A stretch of 64,000 bases of DNA, taken from positions 1 through 64,000 of the IMG/VR virus record IMGVR_UViG_3300005842_000004, one strand, 5' to 3'. The translations under genes and the position numbers were made by a program. The notes under the pieces were generated by a model. The model was given only the letters and a program-made list of their open reading frames with translations, had not been told where the DNA came from and made no database searches. Each line of letters starts with the position of its first letter. Position 1 is the stretch's first letter. Origin of the DNA: a virus. This document shows, piece after piece, positions 1,465 to 46,719 of the stretch.

Positions 1465-1757
1465 CCGAGCATCCCCTTGCGTGATGGGCTGAGATCCTCT
1501 ATTGCAACCGTGCCTTTACGCTTCGTCGCTTTCATCTTCTTGTGTCTCGCAGAGACGGCGTCTTTGAGTCGAACGAAACATGCGGCACGGTGATCGATCT
1601 CCGGCGGTGGTGGATCGCTTAAAAGTCGAATGGCTGTTTCTTGGATAATATCTTCCGGATCTTCAATTCGTCTCCGCCACAAATACAAACGGAAGCACGG
1701 GTCAGAATAAAGCAGATCAACCGGTGACGGATCGACTTCAAGCGGCGACGGGCGCAT
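1461..1757 (-). CDS. sigma-70 region 2-like small protein
   Basis: 98 residues. The ATG at 1757 follows GGGAGA by 5 bases and lies 20 bases inside the 3' end of the recombinase gene. The segment LWRRRIEDPEDIIQETAIRLL closely resembles the core of ECF sigma region 2 (typically DAEDLVQETFLRL). No region 4 follows; the C-terminus is a basic stretch (KKMKATKRK). It could be a stand-alone -10/core-RNAP-binding module that modifies host RNA polymerase, or a remnant. A second sigma-like protein lies at 57215-57916. Confidence 0.55.
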   Translation of the reverse strand: MRPSPLEVDPSPVDLLYSDPCFRLYLWRRRIEDPEDIIQETAIRLLSDPPPPEIDHRAACFVRLKDAVSARHKKMKATKRKGTVAIEDLSPSRKGMLG

Positions 1758-2601
1758 GCGATCTCCCGAGTTTACGGCCGAAGCTGTGCTCGTGCATCGA
1801 AGCGGCGAGAGATTCTTCGGACAGGTGAAGATAGCGCTCCGTCGTAGCGAGCGAGGAGTGGCCAAGAAGCCGCTGCACATGCCGCGGATTCATTCCTGAT
1901 TCGCAGAAGAGAGTGGCGCAAGTATGCCGAAGCATGTGAGGTGTGACCCCTGGCGCATATCGGGCCAGAATGATGCGCACACTTTGCGTGGAGAGGCTCT
2001 TGCCGCATCGGTTTAGCAGCAGCGGATCAGCAGGTTTAATGCCCCGCCTTGTTGTCAGGTATTTCTTCAGCGCATCGGCAGTCTCGCGGTCTGATATAGG
2101 CACGCACCGTTGCCGATTGCCCTTACCGGTCACTCGCAGATTACCCAGCGTATGGTCGAAGTCGCCAACCCTGAGAGAACACAACTCAGCAACACGCAAG
2201 CCCGTAAAAAGCAATAACGTTACGACCATCTTATCGAATCGATGACCAGTCAATTCCGCCAGCAGATCCCGGACGCGAGAGATCACCAGATTACGCGGAA
2301 GGCGACGCGGGACTTTGACTTTGAAATCCGATTTCCGGAAAGGTATCGCCGTGATGTGCCCAGCGTCCAATAGCCAGTTGCAAAAAGCGGACAAACTCAT
2401 GAGCTTACGCAAGCGTGATGCCGGCGCGAGTGTCGAGATCGTGACCTTATAGGCGGTGAGATCAGCACGGCTGGGGATGCCGCAGCAGCCCGACGCGCTC
2501 AGAAACTGTTTGAGATCGATTCGGTAAGCTTTCAAAGTCAAAGGAGCAAGCCCGCGATCCGCACAAGAGAGGAGATATTCGTCGGTCAAGCTGCTGCTCA
2601 C
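1738..2601 (-). CDS. int: tyrosine recombinase/integrase
   Basis: 287 residues, a normal size for Xer/phage integrases. The GTG start overlaps the previous stop (GTGA) with AGAAGGA upstream. The N-terminal SAM-like core-binding domain spans about 1-95 (LTLKAYRIDLKQFL). The catalytic domain has TGLRVAELCSLR (Arg I), VTGKGNRQRCVPI (Lys), MLRHTCATLF (His-x-x-Arg), LLGHSSLATTERYLH (His and nucleophile Tyr), so it looks complete. It would cut and rejoin DNA for lysogenic integration or dimer resolution. It is embedded in an operon with overlaps on both sides, leaving no room for an attP next to it. Confidence 0.92.
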   Translation of the reverse strand: MSSSLTDEYLLSCADRGLAPLTLKAYRIDLKQFLSASGCCGIPSRADLTAYKVTISTLAPASRLRKLMSLSAFCNWLLDAGHITAIPFRKSDFKVKVPRRLPRNLVISRVRDLLAELTGHRFDKMVVTLLLFTGLRVAELCSLRVGDFDHTLGNLRVTGKGNRQRCVPISDRETADALKKYLTTRRGIKPADPLLLNRCGKSLSTQSVRIILARYAPGVTPHMLRHTCATLFCESGMNPRHVQRLLGHSSLATTERYLHLSEESLAASMHEHSFGRKLGRSHAPVAA

Positions 2602-3017
2602 TTGTCGCCATCCTTCTGGTTGTAATAAATGATCGCTGCCGCCTCCCCGTCCGCTCCACACATGATCAACCGCCGATCCCCTCCGCCTGCTCCTCTCTCC
2701 TTCTCCGGCACAACCACATCTCTGATCTCGCCACCCGGAGCGATATAGCACGGGTGAGATCGAATCCACGTGTCGTGCCCGACCGCACCCACCCACATCG
2801 AAGCGATGATGACCAGGACGAACGCGGCAAGCCGGATGATGGCACGGGCGCGATGATGGCGGGGCAGCTCGGCAGAGGAGAGGAGGACGTGGGCGGGGTT
2901 ACCGCCAGTCTGGCCCACGACCGCACGGGTTATTGTTTGATGAGCTGCGTTGCGGGTGCTGCCACTATCCCGCCGTTCTTGTCGCCATTGGTCGCGCTGT
3001 TCAATCTCGGGTCTCAT
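2598..3017 (-). CDS. single-span membrane protein
   Basis: 139 residues. One clear transmembrane segment in the middle (IIRLAAFVLVIIASMWVGAV), preceded by an Arg/Gln-rich N-terminus and followed by a domain with HPCYIAPGG and MCGADG, ending in AAIIYYNQKDGDK. Start ATG 8 bases after the upstream stop; its own stop overlaps the recombinase GTG. Positive charge before the span predicts the N-terminus inside and the C-terminal domain outside. Function unknown. Confidence 0.65.
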   Translation of the reverse strand: MRPEIEQRDQWRQERRDSGSTRNAAHQTITRAVVGQTGGNPAHVLLSSAELPRHHRARAIIRLAAFVLVIIASMWVGAVGHDTWIRSHPCYIAPGGEIRDVVVPEKERGAGGGDRRLIMCGADGEAAAIIYYNQKDGDK

Positions 3018-7348: not shown

Positions 7349-10180
7349 CTAAGGTATCGGATACGCCTGCTTGGCCGGCCGCCAGATCGTCACCGTCGCC
7401 ACGTCATCAACGATCTCCAAGCCGATGACGACCCAATCACTCAGATTCAACTCCGCTTCCTCGACATCGAATGCTGCCTCGTGCAAGATCGACCTCGACC
7501 CTGCCAATATCCAAAGCGGAATCCCCTTCGTATCGGAGGCATATCGGTGCAGGGCCAAGAGTCGCGCTGCCTCAGTCATCGCATCTCGCCGATTGATTAA
7601 TGCAGTCTGGCGGATCTTGGATATCGCAGTCGGGTATCGTCCGGCCGCACCCGTCGCCGTGGCCTTGATCGAATAGTCTTGCTTGACCGCGGGGCGATCC
7701 AACATAGATCCGTAAAGGTATCGATCCGGATCAGACATGGCCAATGCCCCGGCAATGTTGGCAGGGTCCATCTTGCTGTCATTGTGGGCGTACAGGACGG
7801 TCCACTGCCACACTGCCGGATCATGCGATTCGGGTGTGATCTCGCCGGATTGAACATCACGATTGATTGAGTATGTGGCGTCCGGTGTACCAGTCACACC
7901 GACAAATTGCTTAATGTAGATTGTCGACCCTGTCTTGTACGGGATGAACCCAAGCCCGCCCAAGATGATCCGCGAGATCTCTAACGCTGTCTCGCCCTGT
8001 CCGACATACCACCCGCAATCGGAAGGGTTGGCATTGAGACATGCCCGCCATGTCATCGAGTCGAGATCAGCGGCGAGATATCCAGCCAGGTAATAGCACT
8101 TCCGGGCCAAATCCGCCGCAGTCGATCGCCCACCCGTCCACGTCACGTTAGTCAGAGTCAATGCTGTCCCGCCCAGCATTGAGCTCGCGGATGAGCCGGT
8201 CGCATCGTCACAATGCCAGCCATAGGCTAGATTCGCTTCTGACCCCGTCGCCGGCAACATGTGCAGCGCTTGCAAGTCGGATTGACTCAGCGCCCGAGCG
8301 AATACGAGCGGCTCGTCATATCGGCCTTCCGCTTGAGTGCCTGTCGTAGAGTCCGGCCGGCATCCGATCCCGAACGCGGTACGGGTTGTCGAGAATGTCC
8401 CCGTAATCGTCACCACCGCCGATGACAGAGTGCCATTGACCCAGACAGCCAGCGTCGCCCCGGTCGTGGCGGTGTTCCCGGCTTGGTTCATATTGCGGAC
8501 CAAGGCGAGAGAGTAGGTCGTCCCTTCGGATAGATTCGGCCCTGATGATGTGGTGAAGATCGTCCCGGCATCATTGATGCAGAACGCTTCGAGACAGTTT
8601 GCGCCGCCTGTTGACTTGAGCCGGAGAATGATCGATCCGGCCGACGCTGAGGTCTGCCATCCCATGAGGACATAAGAGGCTCCGGTGTGGGACTTGGACG
8701 GGGTGTATTGACAAGTCAGAGTGCACGATCCGTTGACCGAGTTTATCGTTGCCAGGACGGTCGAAGTCGAGATGATGGACAGGGCGGAATTCCAGAAGTT
8801 ATTCCCCGTCACTGTCGCTGAATACGTCCCGGACAATGCGCCGGATGTGATCTGGAATGTGCCAGCGGCGAGGTTGGGTGTCCAGATGGCGCCGAGCGCA
8901 TTATGTCCAGATTGGACTTCAGATATCAGCGCTGCGCCACCATAGGACACTTCACCTATCTGATTGACCGGATCGACCCATGACACCGGGACTCTCGATA
9001 CCGTGCCGAGAACGTACGGGCGGAAATTCCCTGCGATCGATTGCCAGGCCCAGCTCGCAGTATCCCAGGTTACGGATGCGTCAGCGGTACCGGTTAGAGC
9101 TGAGCCGGACTTGCGATCATGGATGGTTGACCCGACTCCCTCATCGCCCGGAAAATAAGCCAAGAGTCCGGATGCCGAGGGGAGGACAGGTTGACGGGAT
9201 TCGGCATACATTGCGGCGACAGTCTTGGCCGAATTCCAGTACGTCCATCGCGATAATTTTCCCTTCAACCCTTTGCCCATCGTCAGAGAGATCGAGTTGG
9301 CTGAGGGCGATCCGGCGATAGACGATGACGATACGACCGACACCCCGTCGACTCCAATCTCTCGTGTACCCGCTGCGGTGTTGACGCTGAATGACAGATA
9401 GTGCCATTGCCGTGCGTGGAGAGGGGAAGCGATCGAGGTTAATGGAGACGGGGTCTGACCTCGAATCGTCATGCCCAACGCCACCCCGGCATCGAACACA
9501 TATCCAGTCGAGCCGGCGGAGTCTTTGAAGAATAGGAATTGATTGGCAATGGTGGGATCGTCGAGGTTGACCCAGCCAGCCAAAGAGAAGGACGAGGTCT
9601 GGTCTAGATTGTCGCCGAGGTCGACTGTGCCGGATGACGTGCCGGGGAAGTACAGGCAGGAGGGGGAGTAGGTGACAGGTTGCAAAGGTTGGTCGAGACT
9701 ATGACTGTCGTCCCGGACAGAGATGATTGCCTTTGCGTCGCCAACTTCGGGAACACCTATGCCCCGGAGAGAGAAAAGGGGAGAGGTGAGGACATCGGAT
9801 AGATTGACTCGGGTGCCAGATGAGAGAATGCCGACAAGATAAATCTGAATCAATCTATTGTCGATCGAATTATGAATCCAAGCATCCCAATGCCCGGCGT
9901 ATTCTCGGACATCGTTGATCAGCTCTAATTGTGAGTATGTGCCGAACGCTTCCGATGGATTGAGCGGGTCGATATGTTGGGATATTTGAAGCCCGGTTGC
10001 CAGGAGAGGGGGGATGTAGGCGGCGACGGGGCCGGAAGGAGGATCGGCCCACCCGCGGCCTTGATTACCCTGGCATATCCATTCGATCGATTCAACGTTG
10101 GATGAGGAGAGATAGGCGATCGAGCAGACGACTTCTATGCGGGCAGAGGGATCGGCGAGGAGGTCGGCGAGGGTTGCCAT
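7349..10180 (-). CDS. tail-tip/receptor-binding protein with two LamG-like domains
   Basis: 943 residues. N-terminus (about 1-165) is conserved-looking tail-tip sequence. Two concanavalin-type LamG-like domains follow: about 175-370 (CLYFPGTSSGTVDLGD, FSLAGWVNLDD, WHYLSFSV) and about 490-680 (CQYTPSKSHTGASYVLMGW, YSLALVRN, RYDEPLVFARALS). The C-terminal part (about 700-943) resembles baseplate/tail hub sequence (GETALEISRIILGGLGFIPY, IWRPAKQ). LamG domains bind glycans or surface proteins, so this is the best candidate for host recognition. It is last in the leftward tail operon, 7 bases after the leader-like peptide. Confidence 0.7.
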   Translation of the reverse strand: MATLADLLADPSARIEVVCSIAYLSSSNVESIEWICQGNQGRGWADPPSGPVAAYIPPLLATGLQISQHIDPLNPSEAFGTYSQLELINDVREYAGHWDAWIHNSIDNRLIQIYLVGILSSGTRVNLSDVLTSPLFSLRGIGVPEVGDAKAIISVRDDSHSLDQPLQPVTYSPSCLYFPGTSSGTVDLGDNLDQTSSFSLAGWVNLDDPTIANQFLFFKDSAGSTGYVFDAGVALGMTIRGQTPSPLTSIASPLHARQWHYLSFSVNTAAGTREIGVDGVSVVSSSSIAGSPSANSISLTMGKGLKGKLSRWTYWNSAKTVAAMYAESRQPVLPSASGLLAYFPGDEGVGSTIHDRKSGSALTGTADASVTWDTASWAWQSIAGNFRPYVLGTVSRVPVSWVDPVNQIGEVSYGGAALISEVQSGHNALGAIWTPNLAAGTFQITSGALSGTYSATVTGNNFWNSALSIISTSTVLATINSVNGSCTLTCQYTPSKSHTGASYVLMGWQTSASAGSIILRLKSTGGANCLEAFCINDAGTIFTTSSGPNLSEGTTYSLALVRNMNQAGNTATTGATLAVWVNGTLSSAVVTITGTFSTTRTAFGIGCRPDSTTGTQAEGRYDEPLVFARALSQSDLQALHMLPATGSEANLAYGWHCDDATGSSASSMLGGTALTLTNVTWTGGRSTAADLARKCYYLAGYLAADLDSMTWRACLNANPSDCGWYVGQGETALEISRIILGGLGFIPYKTGSTIYIKQFVGVTGTPDATYSINRDVQSGEITPESHDPAVWQWTVLYAHNDSKMDPANIAGALAMSDPDRYLYGSMLDRPAVKQDYSIKATATGAAGRYPTAISKIRQTALINRRDAMTEAARLLALHRYASDTKGIPLWILAGSRSILHEAAFDVEEAELNLSDWVVIGLEIVDDVATVTIWRPAKQAYPIP

Positions 10181-10254: not shown

Positions 10255-11763
10255 CTATCCTCCGCCTGATCTCTGGCCATTGTGATCGATCCAATGCAAC
10301 ACCATGTCCCACCTGTCTCGGGTGTGGTTCATCCCGTCAGCGAGTACGTCCGGATCGATCCCGGTAAATCGGCCTATATGTGTCTCCGCTTTCGACCCGA
10401 CGACCATCCAGCGGGGACGGGTTTGCTCATCCGAATACCCCTCGGTCATGTTCGGATCGGGGATGAGCAGAGTAGGGACGCGCATGATCCCGAGTGTGCG
10501 GATGAGACGTTCGATCGCCTGGACGGTCAATCGGGATATGCCGATGATGGTCATGTCGGCCTCGGTCCATTCCAGGGGGGATCGTCCACCGCGGAACGAG
10601 CCGGCACGGGTACGGGCAGGGGTGGAATCGGAGGCGGAGGAAAGATTCCAGCCGGAGGGGGAGGCGAGAGGGGTGATGATGGTATCGGCGGCGAGGAAAC
10701 GACCGGCGTGGAAACGGCCATCAGGATCGCCAGGATTGACAATCGACGAGTAAATGTGCGCGTTCAGCACACCGCCAATCACGCGCGTGAACGGAGTTGT
10801 CAGGTAACTATTGAATGGTCCCGGCTCGACATACACATATGTTGTGGTTGAGATCGTAATGTCGGGTCGCAGCGTAAAGCTATCCATATCGACGTTTGGA
10901 AAATCCAGCAGTCCGGAATCATAACTATATCCCGAGTGATCGAGCACCAGCTCGACGCCGATGAAGTCACAAGCAGTCGAAGTACTCAGATGCAGCTCCA
11001 TAGCTGCTGTTTGACTCGCAAGAGCAGAGGCCAAGAAAGAATAGGTGAACACGAACCCGCCGCTCGAATTGCCCACTTCGACGTGCTCTAGATCCACGTA
11101 CGATACAAGTGATATTACCGAAGATCCCGACTGCCATATCGACGCCGTGACGCTTGGGATCAAAAGCGGGTTGTTCACATCTCGCAGATGGAAGCGGACA
11201 ACGCAAGTGCCAGCTAGCGGCCGTTCGGTCGCGTAGTAATTCGCCCATGTGCCTACAATCGACGTCGCAATTGCTGGATTGGTCGGCGTCAATTTGGTCT
11301 CAGCATAGCCAACAGGCGCCGGATCATCAGGAGGATCAAGAGGATGCCCGGTGAAGTTTGCGTCAGCACCGGTGAGATTTACTTTCGAATTGAGCGTCAT
11401 CGGCGGGCGGACTCGGCTGGCGATTGGGTACGTGTCGACGATGAGTCGGAACAAGTTATTGCCGTAGGTGACACCCGGCAGCACTGCGCTCGGTGTTCTT
11501 CTGTTGATTCCGATCAAAGACACTACACCGAGATTTCTATTGACAATCACATTGTCTGATTGCGCTTGTACCCAACTGCAAGAGCTTCTATGGTTGATGG
11601 CGGACCAGTAATCGCCGAGTATGTCACCCGTCAATTTGCTCGTATCGAATCCTGGCATGGCAGACCCGGTTGTGATTGTCCACCTATCTGACGGATACAG
11701 AACTGCGCCTGTAGTCGACAAATCACGGACAGCGAAGCGGAGACCAGCAACCGGGTCAGTCAT
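10255..11763 (-). CDS. minor tail protein
   Basis: 502 residues. Beta-rich, Ser/Thr-rich with sections such as GGFVFTYSFLASALASQTAAMELHL and a C-terminal tail-like segment (LEWTEADMTIIGISRLTVQAIERLI). Called tail by position between the tape measure/lysis block and the LamG tip protein, and by composition; no specific family is recognised. Start ATG with GAAGG 6 bases upstream, 13 bases after the exported-protein gene. Confidence 0.6.
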   Translation of the reverse strand: MTDPVAGLRFAVRDLSTTGAVLYPSDRWTITTGSAMPGFDTSKLTGDILGDYWSAINHRSSCSWVQAQSDNVIVNRNLGVVSLIGINRRTPSAVLPGVTYGNNLFRLIVDTYPIASRVRPPMTLNSKVNLTGADANFTGHPLDPPDDPAPVGYAETKLTPTNPAIATSIVGTWANYYATERPLAGTCVVRFHLRDVNNPLLIPSVTASIWQSGSSVISLVSYVDLEHVEVGNSSGGFVFTYSFLASALASQTAAMELHLSTSTACDFIGVELVLDHSGYSYDSGLLDFPNVDMDSFTLRPDITISTTTYVYVEPGPFNSYLTTPFTRVIGGVLNAHIYSSIVNPGDPDGRFHAGRFLAADTIITPLASPSGWNLSSASDSTPARTRAGSFRGGRSPLEWTEADMTIIGISRLTVQAIERLIRTLGIMRVPTLLIPDPNMTEGYSDEQTRPRWMVVGSKAETHIGRFTGIDPDVLADGMNHTRDRWDMVLHWIDHNGQRSGGG

Positions 11764-11776
11764 AGCCTTCAGTGTA

Positions 11777-12457
11777 TCAGGGTGCGCCGCAAAGTTTCAC
11801 GCCGTTCGGATCGACACCGCATCCGATCGCGTCCCCGTGATCGTGAAGCCGGCGAAAGCACTTGCCGACTGTTCGCACGGGATCTCCGGTCATGCTGGTC
11901 ACAACGCCGGCCGGGAGACAGGAAGCAGCGCACGGCGGAAGGAACGCCACGTACTCATCATATTGCGGACAGTCCGTCGTGTACCCGACGATATCGACAA
12001 CGTAATCCGCCGCTGCTGTCGAATAGAGCGACACATCTGCCGGGAAGTTGAAGTCAGCCAGTGTGATCGGCGCCGTGACCACATTGCCGTTCTCGTTCGC
12101 AGTCATGAGCAGAGTGATCGCGAGAGGCTGAGACGGCGCATTCCACGGCCACAGGCGGGCGTATCCGGCAGCGCTAGGGTTGACCACGGACAGGCCGACG
12201 AGGACACCGGTTGCGTACTTTGGCACACCGCAACCGGCCTCGCCGCCCTGGTTGGTTCCGGCGTCTTCTCGCACACGGAAACTCATCGTGCTCCCCGCCG
12301 TCATCCGCGCATTGATCAGCCGGGTATCGAGCACTCGGCACGGACGCGGAAGGAGGATGACGTCATCTGCACTCGCCCGATCCACCCCAGCGAGCGCCAT
12401 GACTCCGAATCCGAGAACCACCACCAACTTCATCTTCATCCTCATCTTGAGATTCAT
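11777..12457 (-). CDS. exported protein with RVLDTR motif
   Basis: 226 residues. N-terminal signal peptide: Lys/Met-rich start, hydrophobic LVVVLGFGVMALAGV and a cleavage site near ASA|DD (residue 30). Mature start RPCRVLDTRLIN and later VVDIVGYTTDC match a beta-sandwich repeat common in secreted proteins of Acidobacteriota, Planctomycetota and Actinobacteria (known as PxRVLDTR ... VDVVGY). Six or more C-terminal cysteines suggest disulfides. It is an unusual exported product for a tail operon; cargo altering the lysogen surface or a secreted virion part are both possible. Confidence 0.7.
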   Translation of the reverse strand: MNLKMRMKMKLVVVLGFGVMALAGVDRASADDVILLPRPCRVLDTRLINARMTAGSTMSFRVREDAGTNQGGEAGCGVPKYATGVLVGLSVVNPSAAGYARLWPWNAPSQPLAITLLMTANENGNVVTAPITLADFNFPADVSLYSTAAADYVVDIVGYTTDCPQYDEYVAFLPPCAASCLPAGVVTSMTGDPVRTVGKCFRRLHDHGDAIGCGVDPNGVKLCGAP

Positions 12458-12524: not shown

Positions 12525-12565
12525 CGTCGGACCGAGAGCGCAAGACCTGATATCCCGGTCCGACG
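12525..12565. repeat. 10-bp perfect inverted repeat (stem-loop)
   Basis: CGTCGGACCG (12525-12534) and CGGTCCGACG (12556-12565) can pair with a 21-base loop. It lies in the 210-base gap between the RiPP precursor gene and the exported-protein gene. No T-run follows on either strand, so it may be an RNA processing or attenuation hairpin rather than a simple terminator. Confidence 0.55.
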
Positions 12566-12667: not shown

Positions 12668-12877
12668 TCAGATGCAACCAGTTCTTGCGGCAGAATCGAC
12701 ATGCCCACAAACAGTGAAGACGCCAGTAGGACAATTGCAATTGGTGTTGTTGCACGTCTCGGTACACCAATCAGTCGTCGTACAGCCGTCTTGATTGCTC
12801 TCGCCTCCAACGACTCGGCGTAGAGAGGATTCGGTGAGATTTCTCAGCGTCTCACGACTAAGAGTCAGCCGCCGCAT
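12668..12877 (-). CDS. lanthipeptide-like RiPP precursor peptide
   Basis: 69 residues. The ATG at 12877 follows AGGAGGTG by 8 bases, an excellent site. Leader (1-25): RRLTLSRETLRNLTESSLRR then VVGG, the pattern of class I lanthipeptide-type and related precursors (LxLxRETLRxLxxxxLxxVxGG). Core (26-69): rich in Cys and Thr, with GCTTTDWCTETC, NCNCPTG and CGHVDSAARTGCI; 7 Cys, 9 Thr, 2 Ser, consistent with thioether ring formation by dehydration and cyclisation. First gene after the operator-promoter at 12937. No maturation enzyme is visible in the window. Assignment is by motif; chemistry is inference. Confidence 0.78.
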   Translation of the reverse strand: MRRLTLSRETLRNLTESSLRRVVGGESNQDGCTTTDWCTETCNNTNCNCPTGVFTVCGHVDSAARTGCI

Positions 12878-12936
12878 TTCGCCACCTCCTGGCATTTCCC
12901 TGAGACCGGCCGTCTATTCGTCCGGTCGGCGATCAA

Positions 12937-12969
12937 ACAATACCGCGTATCCTCGGCGGTTGTCAACCG
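12937..12969 (-). promoter_or_regulatory. operator-promoter for the RiPP/tail-tip operon, leftward (site 3)
   Basis: TTGACA (12966-12961) and TATTGT (12942-12937) are 18 bp apart on the minus strand; the -35 lies in the perfect palindrome CGGTTGTCAACCG (12957-12969). Eleven bases further upstream is ACTTACGCTC, also present upstream of the promoter at 46653 and of the rightward candidate at 45649. Start of transcription is predicted near 12930, giving a leader of about 53 bases with a good ribosome binding site. Confidence 0.7.
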
Positions 12970-12995
12970 GGCGAATAGAGCGTAAGTGTCCAGGC

Positions 12996-13022
12996 CAAAA
13001 AGAGCCCCCGTCTCCGGGAGCT
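12996..13022 (-). terminator. rho-independent terminator of the lysis operon
   Basis: On the minus strand AGCTCCCG, loop GAGA, CGGGGGCT (eight pairs with one G-U) is followed by CTTTTT. It sits directly upstream of the operator-promoter at 12937, so lysis-gene transcription ends here and the RiPP operon starts anew. Confidence 0.75.
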
Positions 13023-13117: not shown

Positions 13118-13579
13118 TCAGACAGGGACAGAGGGGAATGCATCCTGGACAAACAGTGCCATCTCCGCCGCACGTCGAGACATGAGACCTCTCAGCGGCT
13201 TATGATTCTGATTGATCCACAAGCCGAACCCGCGCCACGCCGCAATGTAGTCTTTCGACCGCAGTGCTGATCCGATCGTCCCTATCCTGTTGAGCGTGTC
13301 CGGCCCGACATTGAACACCAGCGACACGAGCGCATCAAACATCGACTGAGATAGAGGAGTGCCGAGGGATATGATTTCGTTGACGGTCTGCTCAGCGTCG
13401 ATCAGATCCTGTTGCAGCCAGATTAGGGCTTGGGTCCGGGTGCACGTATCCCCCATCTTGACGCCGCGGGTATGGCCGAATGCGATCGTGGGCACATCAT
13501 CCGCGGTTGGCTTATACGCATGATCAGCGTACGTCTCGAATGACTTGATCAGATCGATTCCGCGTGTTCCGGTTTTCAT
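13118..13579 (-). CDS. endolysin, GH24 T4-type lysozyme
   Basis: 153 residues, typical of the family. Start ATG overlaps the upstream stop (ATGA) with AGGAAAGG upstream. Catalytic region: Glu15 in LIKSFETYADHAY and the block DDVPTIAFGHT (family TIGYGHT). Then the helical half: LNRIGTIGSALRSKDY, GLWINQNHKPLRGLMSRRAAEM (family W..G...GL..RR..E). Hydrolyses the glycan strand of peptidoglycan. No signal peptide, so release needs a holin; the two upstream membrane-anchored proteins are candidates. Confidence 0.92.
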   Translation of the reverse strand: MKTGTRGIDLIKSFETYADHAYKPTADDVPTIAFGHTRGVKMGDTCTRTQALIWLQQDLIDAEQTVNEIISLGTPLSQSMFDALVSLVFNVGPDTLNRIGTIGSALRSKDYIAAWRGFGLWINQNHKPLRGLMSRRAAEMALFVQDAFPSVPV

Positions 13580-14007
13580 CCTTTCCTCGCAATCAGCTCT
13601 TCCAACAGTGCCAACCGATGCGCCGACTCCGCCCGATCCACCCGCGACAACTCCTTGACCGCAGCGACACTCTCCTCCAATACCTGCGCTTTGATCCGGA
13701 GTACACTCGCTGCCTCGGCATTTACCCGTGCCGCCTCCGCGCTGATCCTCGCCGACTCCTGCAACCCATTGACGATGTCGCGGAGGGTTGACCCGGAATC
13801 TGATTTGAACTGTGCGGCAATCTCCTTGACCACATCGAACAATTCCGGATTGTCTTTGAACCGATCGGTTATCGTGATGAGCAGAGGGATGACATCGTGA
13901 GCGTAGAGGATGAGACGATCGAGCGGGCGGATGAGTTTGGAATAGATCACGGAGCAAGCGCCGAGGAGAGCACCCGCCCCAATGATCCACTGGAACCAAG
14001 TCGGCAC
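13576..14007 (-). CDS. membrane-anchored coiled-coil protein of the lysis cassette
   Basis: 143 residues from GTG. N-terminal hydrophobic span WIIGAGALLGACSVIYSK then a long amphipathic helix with Ala heptads (ISAEAARVNAEAASVLRIKAQVLEE). This topology (one span plus a coiled coil) is typical of phage proteins found next to lysins, sometimes annotated holin- or spanin-like. Stop overlaps the lysozyme start. A role in lysis is inferred from position. Confidence 0.62.
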   Translation of the reverse strand: MPTWFQWIIGAGALLGACSVIYSKLIRPLDRLILYAHDVIPLLITITDRFKDNPELFDVVKEIAAQFKSDSGSTLRDIVNGLQESARISAEAARVNAEAASVLRIKAQVLEESVAAVKELSRVDRAESAHRLALLEELIARKG

Positions 14008-14009
14008 GG

Positions 14010-14126
14010 TTAGTGATCACCCGACCCGGCCGGTGGCAAGACTTGTGCGGCCGGATCAGAGGTCTGAGGAGGAGTGAAGGTGACACTGGCCGGCGATGGT
14101 GGCATGATCGGAGCGACGAGAGACAT
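14010..14126 (-). CDS. 38-residue proline-rich protein
   Basis: ATG at 14126 with AGAGGGGTG about 9 bases upstream; stop TAA three bases before the next start. Composition is Pro/Ala/Ser-rich with no membrane segment (MPPSPASVTFTPPQTSDP). It fills what would otherwise be a gap in the lysis operon. Small size makes the call moderate; function unknown. Confidence 0.5.
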   Translation of the reverse strand: MSLVAPIMPPSPASVTFTPPQTSDPAAQVLPPAGSGDH

Positions 14127-14789: not shown

Positions 14790-17700
14790 TTACTTGCGTG
14801 TCCTACGGTCAACCATCGTTCTGATCCGATCCGTCCTCACCAACGCGTCATTGCTCTTCGCCATCTGACTCGACTTGGTGGCGATCGTAGACAAGTGCTT
14901 ATCTGCTCTCCCCTGTGCCGCGGTCAGCCGGTCAATCGAATGTGCTAATGACCGAATCGCCTGATCATGCGCCGGCGAGCTCGACGCCGATCCGCCCATC
15001 CCACCCGCACCAGCTCCCGCGCCCGCACCCGCGCCAATACCCCCCTGACTACGATACTGCAATACTCTAGCACCGTCCATCATCGGGTGCGAGAGGCGAG
15101 TGCTCACCGGCATCATGGGCATCTTGAGTATGGGGATGATCGCTTCCGGGCCTCGATCGCCAACCATGGCCATATGAGGTCTCAGGGCGATCCCACCCTC
15201 GGCATAGTGGGGCAAACCATTGAAGCTGGCATAGATCTGATTTGCTACTTGGTTCGCCCCGGCATAGATAGCACTCGCAATCGTGGCAGCGTTGGCGTCG
15301 GCTCCAGCCACAATAGCGTTTGCTGCCATCTGCATCGCTCCTTGCTCCCCCGCTTGGGCATTGGCCAGCAGATTGGCGCTCCCTGTCATGACTTGATTCC
15401 AGATATCGGCAAACCCTTGCCCACCCTGATACATCGTATGACCCAGGGCGAGGAGAGCTTGTCGCGCCTGGTCCAGCTGATTGAGCGCCCCGACATCGCC
15501 ACCCTGCGCCCGGGCCAGAAGAGAGTTGTAATTCGCCTGTGCCGCGGCAAGCTGCTGCTCTGGAGTCAGACCGGTCAACGCTGGATTGATTAGGAGAGAT
15601 TGCGTCGACTGCGTGAACGCCTGGATTCCTTGTTGCCAGGCTTGCGCCGCCGACTTCATCGCATTCAGCAAGTCCTCAGTCGTGGCACCGCTTGTCGGCT
15701 GATAGATCCGCGCCGCCGCTGCAATCACGTTCCCGGCTTCAATCGTTTTCTTGGCCGCGTCGTGTGCCGCCGTCCACAATGCCTCTGTCGAATCGTTCCA
15801 CGCCCCGAGCGCTTTCAATTGCGCTTCCATCAACTGAAAATTCAGCTCCATCATCTGGAGATCGAATGCCTGCTTATCCTTCTGGTATGCCTCGTCATCT
15901 TTCAGATAGTTATAGAGATTTCCGATGATGCCATTGACCGCGTTTTGCCGCTGATAATCAATGCCAGCCTGGACTTCGTCGAGCATCTTTTTGATTTGCT
16001 CGTCTGTCCATCCCATTGCCTTGCCGTATGCGAGGACATTTTGCCGCATCGCATCAGCCTGGGTGTTGATCGCAAGCATCGGGTCAACCAGACCCATAAA
16101 CGCATTAATCGACGCCTGCAATTCATCGCCGAACCGTTTGAACGACTCGCCCTCGCGCGGGTCTTTCTGCGAGCCTCTTCCCTTGCGCTGGATTTCCTTG
16201 TCAAACTCGACCCAAAACTGCTGCATCGCCTTCAAGCGGGCGGTAAAGTCGGTCCCGATCCCGGCATAGGAATCAGCAGCGGCCTGCTTTGTCTCCTCGA
16301 ATTTCTTCTTGAGTAAGGCAATCCCCGCCGCCAGCTCATCCGCCGGGAGCTTGGCTTCTTTGGCTCGCTTGGTGAAGTCGGCGATGGATTGGTCGAGGCT
16401 GAATTTCTGACTTGCCAAATCGCCAAGTTGCGCCGCCCGCATCCCGCCGATCTCAGAGCGGAGGCTGGCTTGCTGATCAGAACGAGATGTCCCACCGCCG
16501 CCCGGCTTCTGCCTCGCCTGGATTACTGCCGCACCTTCCGCCGCAGTGAGTGCGTCTTGCCACATCCCGGCGAATTCTTCCCACTTGTTCAACACCACGA
16601 GCTGGAGTCGGATCGCCTCAAACTCGATGTCCACCTTCATCTTGGCATAGGCGGCAGCCTGGGCGGCATATTTACCCGAACCTTGCAGATATTTATAGAG
16701 CGAATCAAACACCGCCATGTTGACTTGGCTGTCTGACAGCGCTTCAGGTATCTTTTTCAGCAAATCGGTATATTTTGCGACCTCCGCCTCCAACGCCGCC
16801 CGCTGAGTATTCCAATCCTCTTTGACCTTGTCCGATTCGTCGCTCGTCAACCCGGGCTTGGTCTTCGGCCCCGCGCCCATCGCTGACAGTGCCATGTTTG
16901 CCTTGTCCAGATCCGCCTGCAATTGCGACGCGATCTGATCGGTTGCTTTGGACATCCGATCTTGCAGCCCGACCAATCCAGCGAGAAAGTCGGCCGTGCT
17001 AGTGTCGATTCCGAGAGCGGAGTTTTTGATTCCTTGGACGGTATCGCTGAATTTCTGCGCGATGCTTATCGTGGCATCATTCAGCGCGGTCAAATCGTCA
17101 GCGAATTGAGCTTGAGCCTGGTGCAAGTCGGAGAAGTACTGCTGACTCGCCGCAGATAGTTGGCCGGAAATACCGGGCAGATTCTGCGTTGCGATACGCT
17201 GAGCAAAGTCGACTTGCGCTTTAAACTCATCGATCGACTTGCCGGCATAGTCTTTGATCGCCGCGATGACAAGCGGGTCCAATCCTTGCGAGCTGGAATG
17301 CTTGACCGCCTGAATCAGCGCATACCCGAGCGCCGCATTCATATCCTTACCGAAAGAAGTCACTACACCATCAGCGTAGACTTTCCACTCGGTATTATTT
17401 CCTCGCCCTCTGCGCTTGATCCCGATCGACTCATCCAACGATGCGAATATCCCATCGTACGCAGTGAAGAATTGTTTGATCTGATATGCGAGCTGCTTAC
17501 CCTGTCCGATCAGATTAGAGATGTGCGCCCCGCCACCCGCCGCCGACATCGACACATCCAATGTCTTGTTGAGATCAATGGCGTCTTGTTCGGTCGACTT
17601 CATGTGGTCGTTGAGCTTGTTGACCGCATACCCGAATGCGGCCAATGCAACAACCCAAGCTCCGACCATGCCGACCGCGCCATATGATCCGGTGCCAGAG

Positions 17701-20700
17701 AACAGGGCGCCCATTCCCCCGCTACTGCCTCCCGCCGCGCTTGTCGATCCGCTCCCGGCCCACGCCGACCATGCTGCCGAGCTCGCGGTAGACGTCACCG
17801 CTCCCGTGTAATCGGCACCTTCTGCGTTTGCTCCTCCTCCACCGCCGAGTACCGCCGACCCCGCCTTTGCCGCCGCTTGAGTCGCAAGCCAACGACTCAG
17901 CCATGCGGCCATTGCTTCAAACTGCTGGGTGAGCCAATCTTGAAGCACCTTTTGCGTCGTGGAAGCGAATGCGTCACGGAATGCGCCGAGGAAATCAGAT
18001 ACCTTGACCTCGCCGCCCTTCAATATGTTGCCGATCACATTGGACAGGTTCGACGCCAGCGAGTCAGCCAAGTCCTTATAGTTCTTCTCCGCGATGACGA
18101 TCTCGGCTTGCATCTGGTGCAAACCATTGACGATCTTTTGCTGCGCTTCCAATGTGTCACGGAGACGGGCGACCTCTTCCGGCGCATCTCCTCGTTCGAT
18201 CGCGGCCAAGACCTTCTCGTCGATTACACGTTGTTGAGTCGCCGCAGAGAGTAACCCGTATTGCTTCAATATCCCTGCAACGACCGGACCGTATTCGAGC
18301 GCCGCCTGTCTCTCCGATTGCCAGTCCGTAACACTCGCTCGGATTGATTGGGTTGCCAGCTCGGCAGCGTTGATTTGTAACTGGACTGCCGTCTGCTGCT
18401 TTAGATTATTGGTCAAGTCGAACGATGCCGCCGCCTGATCCTTGGCCGATTGAATCTTCGCCTTGTCTGTCGTGAGTGACGACGCCGCCGCTTCCGCTTG
18501 CCTGATAACCCAATCCCGCTCAACTTGCAGACTGGCAACATGATTATGATTGATCGCATCGGCAAGTGCGGCCTTGGCCACAGCGGCAGAATGGTCATAT
18601 GCGATCGATTGCTGAGTGACGGCGAGCGCATCCTTGTTGATTGATTTGGCGTCAAATGTTGCTGCTGCCTGATTAGCGATCGCATACGTCGTCGCCTCGT
18701 ATGACGCTTCGAGTGCGTCCAGCTCTTTCTTCTTCTCCGCTTCATCGTTGGTCTTGCCGGCGTCGTGGAGTTTCTTGATGACATCGATCAGCTTATCTAC
18801 TTCAGCCGCGTGTACCTTTGCCGCTTCGGCCAATGCCTTAGTGACCGCGGCCGATCGCTGTTGGACTTGCTGCTCTTGGTTGTACGCGACCATCCCGCGG
18901 CCGAGCGCAACCGTCAATATGTTTATCGAATCCTCTTCGTCGCCCAATACTCGGAGCTGATTAGCGAGATCTTCGTTTAATTTGCGGACGGTCTTATCCC
19001 ATTCGGCTTGTGCGTCGGCGGCTGACTTTGACTTCTTGGCGATGTCGTCGGCGCCACCGGGTTTGGCGGGAGGTTTGGCATCGCTTCCAGACAATGCTTT
19101 CGGACCATAGACGAGATCATTCTGCGCTGATAATATGAGTGCTCCGGCCCGCTCCATCCGCGACTTGAGATCAGCGATCGTCTTATCCGCTTCAGCGTTC
19201 ATCTCAGCGCGCCACTTTTCCATCCCGGCGACCGCTTGAGACCCAGCATCATTCTTGACCCCCGGCACCCACCCCCCACCAAGGAATACCGGTATTCTCG
19301 CCCAGACCTTTACCGCTGCCTCAGCCAAGTCATACCAAGTATTTTTCATCTTCTTGGCATTCTCGACCGACTCCATCGCGGCGTACGTCTGTTCCATCGT
19401 ATGTTCGTTGTACGAGATGATCAGACCGTCGATCACAGTGCGGATAACCCGTCCAACCTCTTCGCCCTTCTCCTTGATCAGGGAAAGGAAATTCTCCCAC
19501 CCTCCTGCTTGTTTGATCAGCTCATTGGCAAGGTTTTCGAGCGCCGGAATAACCTCTGACGCAATCTCTTCCTTGAACGCGGCATATACAACCTTGGCCC
19601 GGTTGACATTGATGAGCAATGATCCGCCAGTCAGATCGCCAAGCTTGCCCCACTTCTCGGTCAATATGCCAATGACCTCGGCCTGATATTCTCCGAGCTT
19701 CCCGCCATCAATAAGTGATTGGAGGAATTTCTTCTGCTCAGGCTGGAGAACGACGCCAGCTTCCTTCAATTGCATCAGCGCCCGGACATCACCATCCATC
19801 ACACGGGATAGAGTTGAGAACGCCTGCTCGATCGATTCTCCGGGCAGCGCCTTGACCATCGCCAACGCGGCCTCGGCAACTTGAGGGAATACGTTATGGC
19901 CGATGTGAGTGAAGCGGGTCTCGATCGCGAGCCCGGCGATGATCGATTCTTTCGACTTGCCGGTGAGGAGAGCGAGAGACTCGGCATAATCGACTAGTTC
20001 ATGCGCGCTGAATCCGGCCGCCGCGCCATTAGCAAGGATTGATCGGTTAAGCTGGCCGATTACGACTTGGGTCTGCAATCCTTCCGCTACCACGTCTTTG
20101 AGGAATTCAAACGCTTTCCATGCCACGCCAACCGTTGCTGCCGCTGCCGCAACCGCGAGGATCAGAGGGAGAAATTCGCCCACCGACGCTGCCATCCCTC
20201 CGATCACATTGATGAATCCGCCACCCTCCTCTGCCGACTTGGCCAGCGTTTCGCCCATGTGGGTCAGACGCTCAGTCATCTCAGTGATGATTAGACCGCC
20301 CTCACCCGTGACGCCACCGAGTTTGCCCAAGATTGCGGAAAGGATCGACGTGTTGCCGCCGACTTCGGACATGGCTGACTTTTCGTGTTGCAACTCCTGG
20401 GTCAGCTTCTGCCGCTGGGTAATGAGGGCGGCGATCTGCTTACCAGCATCAGATTCAGCCGACACCCCCGCTCTGACTTGAGCAGTGAGGATTTGCTGAG
20501 CACTGGCTGCGTCACGGAGACTCTGCTGATACTTCGCCCACGCGGCCGGCCCGCCTTTGAGCGCTTCAAGCTCTTTGTCCAGGGTTGAATTTAGCGCGGT
20601 CAGATCAGAAACCAGGGCTTTGGATTTCCCCGTATCCGCCATCTGATCGGATAGTTTTTTCGCTGCCTCTTGGGTGCGGCGAAGGGCGGTCTCGGCTTTG

Positions 20701-20822
20701 AGCGCGGATGCTTCGACCTTGGAATTAGCAGATTGGGCGGATGTGCCGACTGAAGCGAATGATGCGTTAGCTTCTGGCACACCCGCGGCATTGACCAGGA
20801 TTTCGACCAGAAATTTCGCCAC
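14790..20822 (-). CDS. tail tape measure protein
   Basis: 2010 residues, GTG start. N-terminus MAKFLVEILVNAAGVPEANA is typical of tape measure proteins. Long helical stretches alternate with hydrophobic segments (LPLILAVAAAAATVGVAW about residue 220; ALFSGTGSYGAVGMVGAWVV about 1050) and Gly-rich linkers (GGAGAGAGAGAG near the C-terminus). By the usual 0.15 nm per residue the tail would be about 300 nm long. It sets tail length and is ejected with DNA. Follows the chaperone pair, as in other siphoviruses. A hairpin covers its ribosome binding site. Confidence 0.95.
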   Translation of the reverse strand: MAKFLVEILVNAAGVPEANASFASVGTSAQSANSKVEASALKAETALRRTQEAAKKLSDQMADTGKSKALVSDLTALNSTLDKELEALKGGPAAWAKYQQSLRDAASAQQILTAQVRAGVSAESDAGKQIAALITQRQKLTQELQHEKSAMSEVGGNTSILSAILGKLGGVTGEGGLIITEMTERLTHMGETLAKSAEEGGGFINVIGGMAASVGEFLPLILAVAAAAATVGVAWKAFEFLKDVVAEGLQTQVVIGQLNRSILANGAAAGFSAHELVDYAESLALLTGKSKESIIAGLAIETRFTHIGHNVFPQVAEAALAMVKALPGESIEQAFSTLSRVMDGDVRALMQLKEAGVVLQPEQKKFLQSLIDGGKLGEYQAEVIGILTEKWGKLGDLTGGSLLINVNRAKVVYAAFKEEIASEVIPALENLANELIKQAGGWENFLSLIKEKGEEVGRVIRTVIDGLIISYNEHTMEQTYAAMESVENAKKMKNTWYDLAEAAVKVWARIPVFLGGGWVPGVKNDAGSQAVAGMEKWRAEMNAEADKTIADLKSRMERAGALILSAQNDLVYGPKALSGSDAKPPAKPGGADDIAKKSKSAADAQAEWDKTVRKLNEDLANQLRVLGDEEDSINILTVALGRGMVAYNQEQQVQQRSAAVTKALAEAAKVHAAEVDKLIDVIKKLHDAGKTNDEAEKKKELDALEASYEATTYAIANQAAATFDAKSINKDALAVTQQSIAYDHSAAVAKAALADAINHNHVASLQVERDWVIRQAEAAASSLTTDKAKIQSAKDQAAASFDLTNNLKQQTAVQLQINAAELATQSIRASVTDWQSERQAALEYGPVVAGILKQYGLLSAATQQRVIDEKVLAAIERGDAPEEVARLRDTLEAQQKIVNGLHQMQAEIVIAEKNYKDLADSLASNLSNVIGNILKGGEVKVSDFLGAFRDAFASTTQKVLQDWLTQQFEAMAAWLSRWLATQAAAKAGSAVLGGGGGANAEGADYTGAVTSTASSAAWSAWAGSGSTSAAGGSSGGMGALFSGTGSYGAVGMVGAWVVALAAFGYAVNKLNDHMKSTEQDAIDLNKTLDVSMSAAGGGAHISNLIGQGKQLAYQIKQFFTAYDGIFASLDESIGIKRRGRGNNTEWKVYADGVVTSFGKDMNAALGYALIQAVKHSSSQGLDPLVIAAIKDYAGKSIDEFKAQVDFAQRIATQNLPGISGQLSAASQQYFSDLHQAQAQFADDLTALNDATISIAQKFSDTVQGIKNSALGIDTSTADFLAGLVGLQDRMSKATDQIASQLQADLDKANMALSAMGAGPKTKPGLTSDESDKVKEDWNTQRAALEAEVAKYTDLLKKIPEALSDSQVNMAVFDSLYKYLQGSGKYAAQAAAYAKMKVDIEFEAIRLQLVVLNKWEEFAGMWQDALTAAEGAAVIQARQKPGGGGTSRSDQQASLRSEIGGMRAAQLGDLASQKFSLDQSIADFTKRAKEAKLPADELAAGIALLKKKFEETKQAAADSYAGIGTDFTARLKAMQQFWVEFDKEIQRKGRGSQKDPREGESFKRFGDELQASINAFMGLVDPMLAINTQADAMRQNVLAYGKAMGWTDEQIKKMLDEVQAGIDYQRQNAVNGIIGNLYNYLKDDEAYQKDKQAFDLQMMELNFQLMEAQLKALGAWNDSTEALWTAAHDAAKKTIEAGNVIAAAARIYQPTSGATTEDLLNAMKSAAQAWQQGIQAFTQSTQSLLINPALTGLTPEQQLAAAQANYNSLLARAQGGDVGALNQLDQARQALLALGHTMYQGGQGFADIWNQVMTGSANLLANAQAGEQGAMQMAANAIVAGADANAATIASAIYAGANQVANQIYASFNGLPHYAEGGIALRPHMAMVGDRGPEAIIPILKMPMMPVSTRLSHPMMDGARVLQYRSQGGIGAGAGAGAGAGGMGGSASSSPAHDQAIRSLAHSIDRLTAAQGRADKHLSTIATKSSQMAKSNDALVRTDRIRTMVDRRTRK

Positions 20823-40554: not shown

Positions 40555-40896
40555 CTACGTCTTCCGCTTCATCCCGAGTGGCACGATCCGCTCACGTCTT
40601 GCCTTGATCTTGGCGAGCTTGGCATCCTGGAATGGGCGCACGGCATGGAGTGGACACGCTACCGATTGACAGTCACGTATGGCATCGATTGCACCGGCTT
40701 CATACCCCATGCACTCCAAGCACATGGCCTTCACTGCGCATACCCGGGATGGAGATTTGACGATGGCGTCGCCGGATTCCGATTCGTACGGCAACCCCCA
40801 CGCCCGCTTGAGCAAACGTGCGACACGGGGAGTGACAGTCGATAAATGCGACTCCTTGGAACGGGCAAGATAAGCATATTGGGTGTCGATGCTCAT
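40555..40896 (-). CDS. zinc-binding phage protein (CxxCMG type)
   Basis: 113 residues. Contains CAVKAMCLECMGYEAGAI...RDCQSVACPLH and a basic tail KARRERIVPLG, which I recognise as a small phage family (KxxxCxxCMG ... C.s..CPL.P.R). Starts inside the ATGA at the end of the ParB-like gene. Function unknown, probably nucleic-acid binding. Confidence 0.66.
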   Translation of the reverse strand: MSIDTQYAYLARSKESHLSTVTPRVARLLKRAWGLPYESESGDAIVKSPSRVCAVKAMCLECMGYEAGAIDAIRDCQSVACPLHAVRPFQDAKLAKIKARRERIVPLGMKRKT

Positions 40897-42176
40897 GCCG
40901 GCACCGGTTCCCCATTCTCGTCCAACACGTATTCTCCCTCACCATCGTCATCGATATCCGACCCACTCTCATCTTCATCCTCATCCGGCCACTTCGACTT
41001 GCTCATTTCATCCCACTGATAGATCACATCGGCCACAGTGTTGACATGGCCAGACGACCCAGGCTCGCGAGTCAAAGCGCAATAGAGATAATAGGCGAGC
41101 GGCACCGAGTCATGCTCCTCGCCAGTTTCAGGGTGCTTGTGCGGGGACATCAAGAGCTGGCAGAGATCGAGCAGCTCCTTCATCTTGACGGGCGGGACTG
41201 CCAACCCCTTGCCGGCACCCTTGGCAGCAGCAGCAGCAGTGATCTTGGCAGCGAGCTTGCGAACAGAGGCAGGAGCATTACCCTTGCCGGGCTTCTTCGT
41301 TGTCTTAGGCGCGGGCTTGGGTTTCAGATTGTCAGACTTCGGCCGGCCACGGGGACGTTTGGGCGCGTCGGCAGGAGCAGAGTCGCCACCTGGAGCGTGA
41401 TCGGCGCCATCACCACGGCTGATATCGTCGCCCTCCTCTACATCCGCTGATTTATTCATCGAATCGTCGACGGGCAATTCCGCCGTCGCCTCTGCCAGCA
41501 TCCGGGCGACCTCTGCTGTCTCCTCCTCGGCATGCTCGCGGAACAGGGTCTCGATCTCCTCGTCGGTCAGAGTGAGACTGGCTTGGGCGGCTTTCATAGT
41601 CATGCGTCCGTCATGCAACCGGTCCAGGATCGCTGGGGATGCAGACAAGAGCTTGGACAGGGTGTGCGTAATCCATCCCTCTGAGACGCGAAGGAGCTTG
41701 GCAATCTCGGCGTCGGACATGTCGGATTTACGAGCCTGGCGGACGACTTCGACCTGGTCAGCGTAGGAGAGGGGGTTATGGGCGTTGTCCTGCACCATGA
41801 CCTTGAGCCATTCGGACTGCGGTGCATCATAGATCACATATCGCAACCCGAGCGGCGCAGTGAATCCGTGGATGACCGACAGCTCGTCGAAATTGTCCCG
41901 AATCCGCTTGATCGCTTCGAGCCGACGCCGACCACCGAGCAGGCGCAATCCACCATCCGGCTTTTTGACCAGGATTGCCGGGGACTGCTGACCGATCGGG
42001 TTGTCGGCAAGCATTTGGATCATTTCTTCGATCGAATTGGGGCCGGTCTCGGGGATGGCATGGCGGATATTGTTCCCAACGTCGATGGAGTCGAGGTCTT
42101 TGGGATCGATAACTTGATAGACGTCGCGCGGGGCCTTGGTGGTGATGGTGGAATCGCCGGAACCATACGTGGGCAT
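40893..42176 (-). CDS. ParB/Spo0J-like nuclease-domain protein
   Basis: 427 residues. N-terminal ParB domain: IDPKDLDSIDVGNNIRHAIP, LADNPIGQQSPAILV and GLRLLGGRRRLEAIKRI (ParB box II, GERR type). Then a KorB-like HTH: MSDAEIAKLLRVSEGWITHTLSKLL. The C-terminal half is Lys/Pro/Ala-rich (RPRGRPKSDN) and Asp/Glu-rich at the end. In phages ParB-like proteins act in partition, regulation or as nucleases. ATG with AAAGGAG 9 bases upstream. Confidence 0.85.
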   Translation of the reverse strand: MPTYGSGDSTITTKAPRDVYQVIDPKDLDSIDVGNNIRHAIPETGPNSIEEMIQMLADNPIGQQSPAILVKKPDGGLRLLGGRRRLEAIKRIRDNFDELSVIHGFTAPLGLRYVIYDAPQSEWLKVMVQDNAHNPLSYADQVEVVRQARKSDMSDAEIAKLLRVSEGWITHTLSKLLSASPAILDRLHDGRMTMKAAQASLTLTDEEIETLFREHAEEETAEVARMLAEATAELPVDDSMNKSADVEEGDDISRGDGADHAPGGDSAPADAPKRPRGRPKSDNLKPKPAPKTTKKPGKGNAPASVRKLAAKITAAAAAKGAGKGLAVPPVKMKELLDLCQLLMSPHKHPETGEEHDSVPLAYYLYCALTREPGSSGHVNTVADVIYQWDEMSKSKWPDEDEDESGSDIDDDGEGEYVLDENGEPVPA

Positions 42177-45743: not shown

Positions 45744-46385
45744 CTACTTCCCGAGTCTCACCTGCTTCCGAATGAGTACATTTCCGGACAGGTCGAAAGT
45801 GATTCCTTTGTTAAGCATTAGCCAATCAATGACCGAGCGGAGGTGTTTGCGCTTGGTTGGGACGGTGTCAGCGTTCATCATCTGGTCGTAGATTGGGCGG
45901 AAAATGGGGTCAGAGTAGAGCGACTTGATCAGGTCTGACACGGTCGCCATGAATCGGGTAATCGACGTCCATTTGTCGCAGAGCTCGCGGCCGGCATCCG
46001 AGCCGGAGTGGAGCTTTTTGAAGGCGGCTGCGGATCGGGCGTCATGTTCTCGGCGGGCAGCAGACTCAGCCTCGATACCCGCCTCGTATGCGCGGATCTC
46101 GCTATCGCGGCCGGCCGATTCTTCGTCCTCTCGGCAGCGAAGAATGAGGAGAGGGTGCTGTGGGGCAGCGCCTGGATCGATCGAATCCAGGGCCGATTCC
46201 ACGTCCTTCCACACGCCGAGCAAGTGCCAGCGCTCGACAACTCCGCGACGGATGTATCGGTGATAGAGGAGGACATCCGAGCCATACACCAGTCCGCCCG
46301 GGCGATCGGCGCCACGTGATCTCCACTCTCTTTCGGCATCGTCAGGATCGACCTGGCTGAGTGCCCATTCCGATCGTAATGTCAT
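45744..46385 (-). CDS. hypothetical protein
   Basis: 213 residues from ATG at 46385 (a TTG at 46412 is possible). Contains LVYGSDVLLYHRYIRRGVVERWHLLGVW and helical SITRFMATVSDLIKSLYSD. No family recognised. Neither start has a good ribosome binding site. Confidence 0.5.
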   Translation of the reverse strand: MTLRSEWALSQVDPDDAEREWRSRGADRPGGLVYGSDVLLYHRYIRRGVVERWHLLGVWKDVESALDSIDPGAAPQHPLLILRCREDEESAGRDSEIRAYEAGIEAESAARREHDARSAAAFKKLHSGSDAGRELCDKWTSITRFMATVSDLIKSLYSDPIFRPIYDQMMNADTVPTKRKHLRSVIDWLMLNKGITFDLSGNVLIRKQVRLGK

Positions 46386-46418
46386 CCGGCCGGAACGATA
46401 GGGCGATGACAAGTTGAT

Positions 46419-46643
46419 TCATTTCGGCAGCTCCCCACCGCCGGCACGATAGGCCCGGCGCTCGGATTCGGTGAGTGATTCGTAAACTGTGACAAGTAAG
46501 GGAGGCCGGGAACCGCGCACATTGGACAGGCCGGATCGCTCGGATCGGCCAGATTGGACGGGTACGTCTTGAGGATGAGTGTGCGAGGGTGCTACTCGGC
46601 GGGTAGACCTAAGGTTGATGATTGCGCGGTTCCCGGTTCTCAT
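46419..46643 (-). CDS. small hypothetical protein, leaderless
   Basis: 74 residues. Basic and disordered N-terminus (RSTRRVAPSHTHPQD) with C-terminal VTVYESLTESERRAYRAG, a short helix. The ATG is 9 bases after the -10 box TATTCT of the operator-promoter, so the mRNA has almost no leader and no Shine-Dalgarno. Unknown function. Confidence 0.55.
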   Translation of the reverse strand: MRTGNRAIINLRSTRRVAPSHTHPQDVPVQSGRSERSGLSNVRGSRPPLLVTVYESLTESERRAYRAGGGELPK

Positions 46644-46652
46644 GGTGAGACC

Positions 46653-46685
46653 AGAATAGGCGCATCGCTAGGCGGTTGTCAACCG
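46653..46685 (-). promoter_or_regulatory. operator-promoter, leftward (site 5)
   Basis: TTGACA (46682-46677) and TATTCT (46658-46653), spacer 18 bp, inside perfect palindrome CGGTTGTCAACCG (46673-46685). Directly upstream is ACTTACGCTC in the same relative place as at site 3; the 15 bases GAATAGAGCGTAAGT are identical in the two sites. Drives the leaderless gene at 46643. Confidence 0.66.
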
Positions 46686-46719
46686 GAGGAATAGAGCGTA
46701 AGTCAGAGGAGTCTACCCG

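Follow-up and report, generated by a model that had tools for sequence, protein, structure and literature searches.

The stretch of DNA analysed here (the window) comprises 64,000 nucleotides, corresponding to positions 1 to 64,000 of the 64.7-kb virus record IMGVR_UViG_3300005842_000004 (IMG/VR). It contains an ORF that runs from an ATG at position 12877 to position 12668 and codes for a peptide of 69 amino acids. The ORF is located on the minus strand; the plus frame of the same interval is interrupted by a stop. As described previously in a reading made without database searches (the sequence-only reading), the peptide is composed of a leader ending in GG and a 44-residue core with seven Cys and nine Thr; two Ser are also present in the core. 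The strong ribosome binding site noted in the same reading was identified as AGGAGG, whose end is separated from the start codon by 7 nt. A second in-frame ATG at position 12895 is unlikely to be used, because it is located before the Shine-Dalgarno sequence itself. The DNA pattern of the leader occurred once in the window, as compared to a mean of 0.00 in 100 shuffles. All features are listed in Table 1.

Table 1. Features of the peptide locus, its surroundings and two further phage contigs (window positions unless a locus is named).
Feature	Position	Strand	Evidence or remark
Predicted lanthipeptide precursor, 69 aa	12668..12877	-	translation, leader/core comparison, HMM
Leader MRRLTLSRETLRNLTESSLRRVVGG	12877-12803	-	N-terminal part of precursor, ends in GG
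Core ESNQDGCTTTDWCTETCNNTNCNCPTGVFTVCGHVDSAARTGCI (ESNQDGC...TGCI), 44 aa	12802-12671	-	after GG
Precursor stop codon	12670-12668	-	
Shine-Dalgarno AGGAGG	12885..12890	-	sequence
Sigma-70-type promoter TTGACA-18-TATTGT	12937..12966	-	with palindrome GGTTGACAACC over -35
24-nt promoter/operator motif TACGCTCTATTCNNCCGGTTGACA, copy 1	12961..12984	-	
24-nt promoter/operator motif TACGCTCTATTCNNCCGGTTGACA, copy 2	46677..46700	-	precedes short ORF 46419-46643 and gene 45744-46412
Terminator-like hairpin between endolysin operon and peptide promoter	13003..13022	-	consensus match only
13-bp stem-loop between peptide gene and next gene	12525..12565	-	possible transcript end; z-score -0.95, weak
Endolysin	13118..14086	-	upstream phage gene
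Tape measure	14790-20822	-	phage gene, same side as endolysin
226-aa protein, signal-peptide-like N-terminus, CRVLDTR-type domain	11777..12457	-	host-type cargo adjoining peptide gene
502-aa protein	10255..11763	-	downstream phage gene, no family match; tail suggested by position
Leader-only mini-ORF MSRKLKLTRETIRLLAVQALD*, 21 aa	10188..10253	-	GGAGG before ATG; HMM E = 0.11
943-aa protein, Laminin_G_3 domains	7349..10180	-	tail tip suggested by position
Tyrosine-recombinase integrase	1738..2796	-	PF00589, E 4.9e-32
Class I precursor on contig G150	L117 / L133:234-419	+	
Probable class I precursor on contig G151	L118 / L137:9249-9446	-	convergent to exonuclease gene

The peptide gene is flanked on both sides by phage genes on the same strand, and the record also encodes TerL, portal, protease, capsid and DNA polymerase. 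The presence of a tyrosine integrase points to a temperate phage. The CRVLDTR-type domain of the adjoining 226-aa protein is repeated many times in Thermoanaerobaculia genomes, and the family of this protein was found in 19 of 147 genomes of the class, with up to 19 matches in one of them. Elsewhere in the window, genes for a phosphoadenosine phosphosulfate reductase-like auxiliary protein (47560-48498, minus strand) and a ParB-like protein (40893-42176, minus strand) were observed. The sequence-only reading had seen no lanthipeptide enzymes, and this absence extends to the whole 64.7-kb record, in which neither LanB nor LanC was detected by a search that found both in six bacterial genomes; the phage precursor thus has no LanB and LanC nearby. 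Pfam scans of 30 further window ORFs (small ORFs scanned in part) revealed no RiPP enzyme or exporter. Since the phage carries no such enzymes, those of the host are probably used.

The window contains precisely two copies of the motif TACGCTCTATTCNNCCGGTTGACA (expected 0.00), and in both of them TTGACA is followed after 18 nt by TATT(G/C)T. An operator-promoter common to other phage operons had been proposed for the peptide gene; the shared motif is real, but it is certain for one other place only (46677-46700). By this motif, common to a second phage locus, the peptide gene is wired into the phage. Its GC content of 53% is near the phage average of 57%, that of the related host operon being 72%. 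The palindrome CCGAGATCATCTCGG, located before the promoter, was considered as a shared operator and not counted, as it has no repeat elsewhere. Because the peptide gene has its own TTGACA/TATTGT promoter, preceded by a terminator-like hairpin that would end the endolysin-operon transcripts, it seems to give rise to a transcript of its own rather than to open the tail operon. Its proposed position as the first gene of a tail-tip operon is therefore doubtful, given the hairpin before the promoter (13022-13003) and the 13-bp stem before the next gene, the stability of which was not clearly above that of shuffles. The more general description as part of a phage structural operon holds for its location between lysis and tail genes, but not for its transcription, which has a promoter of its own.

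A second leader-like peptide, MSRKLKLTRETIRLLAVQALD, is encoded by a mini-ORF that exactly fills the interval between the 502-aa and 943-aa genes. Its ATG at 10253 is preceded by GGCGGAGG, and its stop codon, with the last base at 10188, lies 7 nt upstream of the following ATG. Similarity to the leader extends as far as the conserved leucine, and the peptide ends before the VxGG and core positions. Its local-alignment score against a host leader was 48, with best scores of 27 to 44 in 25 shuffled windows; the HMM match was weak, with E = 0.11 across the complete test set. It is probably a truncated leader and may represent a relic, a coupling ORF or a decoy.

For class assignment, an HMM was constructed from 12 bacterial precursors, leaving out the phage peptide, and applied to a test set consisting of all six-frame stretches from the window, from two further phage contigs and from 30 shuffled windows. 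This host-only profile ranked the peptide ORF first (E = 1.3e-12), with a value of 0.2 for the best shuffled stretch; the result supersedes an E-value of 4.2e-20 for the window, which was circular because the underlying alignment (A1) included the phage peptide. The leader was also compared with RiPP models, as suggested in the sequence-only reading. With the NCBIfam class I L1a leader model NF038153, the phage leader reached 17.4 bits and remained under the cut-off of 22, but so did one bacterial relative (19.8 bits); relatives linked to LanB/LanC scored 23.8 to 40.3 bits. The phage leader is thus placed just under the range of its bacterial relatives (19.8 to 40.3 bits). Two other assignments were rejected: a radical-SAM-modified GG peptide (TIGR04149; 8.6 bits vs a cut-off of 25) and the prochlorosin family proper, as the leader matches L1a and neither Pfam nor NCBIfam gave a Nif11 hit.

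Among 84,980 prokaryote genomes (species), the strict leader pattern was found in seven stretches, all of them from Acidobacteriota, in records that include Thermoanaerobaculia, Thermoanaerobaculum and Holophagales. When the phage peptide was compared with 149 genomes of the class, the closest match was obtained in genome G090 (56% identity over residues 2-44). On the respective contig (C255), six precursors stand in tandem in one operon with genes for LanC, LanB, an HlyD-like protein and a C39-peptidase ABC exporter. Five of the six G090 cores contain the motif (S/T)T(D/E)xCT(D/E)(S/T)C, for example as CTTTDLCTESC, and the phage core contains CTTTDWCTETC. When the cores alone were compared with each other, none of 20,000 shuffles reached the best score. 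In both leader and core, the phage peptide is homologous to precursors that have LanB and LanC genes as neighbours. These Thermoanaerobaculia homologs, with one set next to LanC, LanB and a C39 exporter, support the proposal of a lanthipeptide-like precursor that has a class I leader and a GG site and needs host enzymes, whereas the alternative of a virion-associated peptide found no support.

A second LanB-linked precursor pair with this leader type is located on contig 35 of genome G002. Six host-type genomes contained 2 to 52 candidate precursors, 1 to 8 LanB matches and 4 to 16 LanC-like matches each, counts that include fragment matches and, among the weak precursor hits, possibly false ones. 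In G003, about 52 candidate precursors are distributed over 32 contigs, so that precursors far outnumber and lie apart from the synthetases; because only 6 of these 52 have a LanB or LanC gene at a distance of 20 kb or less, modification in trans appears to be normal there. Genomes G003, G005 and G006 were each seen to carry 33 to 52 scattered candidate precursors. Acidobacteriota, including a Thermoanaerobaculia species, have been described as rich in biosynthetic clusters (PMC13083261). The virus probably has an acidobacterial host, as judged from the confinement of the leader pattern to Acidobacteriota, the family of the 226-aa protein and a TerL that is somewhat closer to the class (best match 38% within the class vs 33-34% in the phage collection); no direct phage-host link was found.

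Searches for relatives of the peptide in 50,697 phage and 72,556 plasmid records (near-identity and protein searches) were negative, and queries with the peptide, the 502-aa protein, TerL or alignment A2 retrieved no relatives from viral contigs. The strict leader pattern did not occur in viral contigs. A looser version gave four hits, with precursors on two contigs. One of these, G150 (57.7 kb; TerL, exonuclease), encodes the Cys-rich peptide MKRKRLELKRDTVRNLTVGGLRQVYGGSDTPVTCDSCGCDITRGCNITQRGPGCGPWPDPP, which has an AGGAG site and an HMM E-value of 1.3e-7. The other, G151 (52 kb; contractile-tail phage genes), encodes MKKTKVARLALTSDTIRDLSAAQLRVVVGG... (E = 1.1e-6), which is less certain because it has no clear ribosome site. 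As both were picked from millions of contigs, the G150 precursor is graded as a robust prediction and that of G151 as suggestive. LanB and LanC were not found in either contig, both of which may be fragments. The two remaining hits (L116, L119) lie inside long unrelated ORFs and were attributed to chance. G150 additionally contains a leader-like ORF (L132:5038-5156, plus strand) that has ten consecutive G at its GG site and a Cys/Thr-rich next frame, for which a frameshift, a sequencing error or phase variation is possible. A coreless second G150 peptide (L132:4881-5156) was considered as a decoy and rejected, since the ten-G run and the Cys/Thr-rich next frame make a frameshift or sequencing error likelier.

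Taken together, we explain the gene with good confidence as cargo of a temperate tailed phage that codes for a class I lanthipeptide precursor of the kind found in Thermoanaerobaculia, whose maturation would depend on host enzymes acting in trans. The precursor gene would be driven by a phage-type promoter of its own and translated, after which host LanB would read the leader and dehydrate Thr and Ser residues. LanC would then join some of the seven Cys into (methyl)lanthionine rings, and a host ABC exporter with a C39 peptidase would cleave after GG and secrete the core. The benefit would most likely lie in a bacteriocin or signal that the lysogen or infected cell produces; this is favoured over a decoy because the core has been kept. 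Counting against this explanation are the NF038153 score under the cut-off and the absence from the phage leader of the basic N-terminal extension present in its relatives; moreover, the host is deduced from indirect evidence, the collections searched contain no close phage relatives, and a Cys-rich peptide can fold by disulfides without modification. A secreted peptide of the latter kind, unmodified or disulfide-bonded and with a GG leader borrowed for C39 export, would agree with the seven Cys, the GG site, the C39 exporter in the related operon and the lack of enzymes in the phage. It is nevertheless very improbable, as both the core and the leader match those of precursors whose genes adjoin LanB and LanC, and the nine Thr, many of them just before Cys, fit lanthionine rings.

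The leader-only ORF keeps a different role under consideration, in which this ORF and the 69-aa peptide would occupy the leader-binding site of host LanB and thereby blunt a phage-harming host lanthipeptide. We regard such a decoy or anti-defence function as unlikely: the 69-aa peptide retains a Cys/Thr-rich core like that of one particular host family, a part that a decoy could do without, and the leader-only ORF is weak when taken alone (E = 0.11, with 1 of 25 shuffled windows near). To our knowledge, no anti-phage role has been assigned to acidobacterial lanthipeptides, which also counts against it. In its favour, one phage carries two leader-like peptides, one of which is coreless, has a ribosome site and fills an intergenic gap. 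It is also plausible because Streptomyces lanthipeptides were reported to confer protection from phages and to block their late transcription (PMC12360287). A rather unlikely conjecture, put forward tentatively, is that phages of lanthipeptide-rich Acidobacteriota carry enzyme-free precursors, in this case joined by a leader-only peptide, in order to divert or jam the class I synthetase of the host, as a counter-measure or as piracy. Acquisition of a host precursor gene as a passive passenger without use to the phage would be in line with the numerous, scattered precursor genes of likely hosts, but the phage-like GC content, the phage-type promoter common to a second locus, the strong ribosome site and the precursors on other phage contigs make it quite improbable. 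A chance ORF or assembly chimera, to which a single contig without close relatives in the collections searched could give rise, is already contradicted by the E-value of 1.3e-12 from a profile excluding the peptide, by the expression signals and by the same-strand phage genes on both sides, and its probability is negligible.

The phage precursor, here taken as a substrate for host enzymes, resembles the class I precursors with an L1a leader (NF038153) of the G090 C255 operon type in its LxLxxETLRNLxxxxLxxVxGG-type leader with a GG site and in its Cys/Thr core with a CTTTDxCT(D/E)(S/T)C motif. It differs from them in that it is carried by a phage, is present as a single copy, has no adjoining LanB, LanC or exporter gene, possesses a shorter N-terminus and scores below the NF038153 cut-off. 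Sublancin, encoded on SPbeta, is an example of a prophage-borne bacteriocin. In PMC7616364, the share of prophages with biosynthetic clusters, most of them for bacteriocins, is given as up to 3%, and Dragos et al. 2021 is cited there for prophage-borne bacteriocin clusters. Like these, the phage carries a gene for a peptide natural product that the host cell could express; however, such clusters bring their own enzymes, whereas here the substrate gene alone is present and no cluster with modification, export and immunity genes was seen among the ORFs scanned. The many scattered precursors and few trans-acting enzymes of the host-type genomes are reminiscent of prochlorosins and synechococsins, in which one enzyme serves many scattered precursors (PMC10783134), but prochlorosins are class II, ProcM-type products of cyanobacteria with Nif11 leaders, as opposed to a class I leader on a phage carrier. 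The anti-phage lanthipeptides of Streptomyces (PMC12360287) share the link between lanthipeptides and phage infection, except that they serve host defence, whereas here the phage carries the precursor. A search of the open-licence literature revealed no earlier description of a phage that encodes a class I lanthipeptide precursor without the enzymes. If the proposed explanation is true, such phages would provide a cheap way to spread and diversify lanthipeptides and would help explain the scattered Thermoanaerobaculia precursors, and a conflict between phages and lanthipeptides becomes directly testable. Known phage peptide clusters include enzymes, whereas these phages appear to supply the substrate alone and to leave its modification to enzymes of the host, which have dozens of scattered substrates already.
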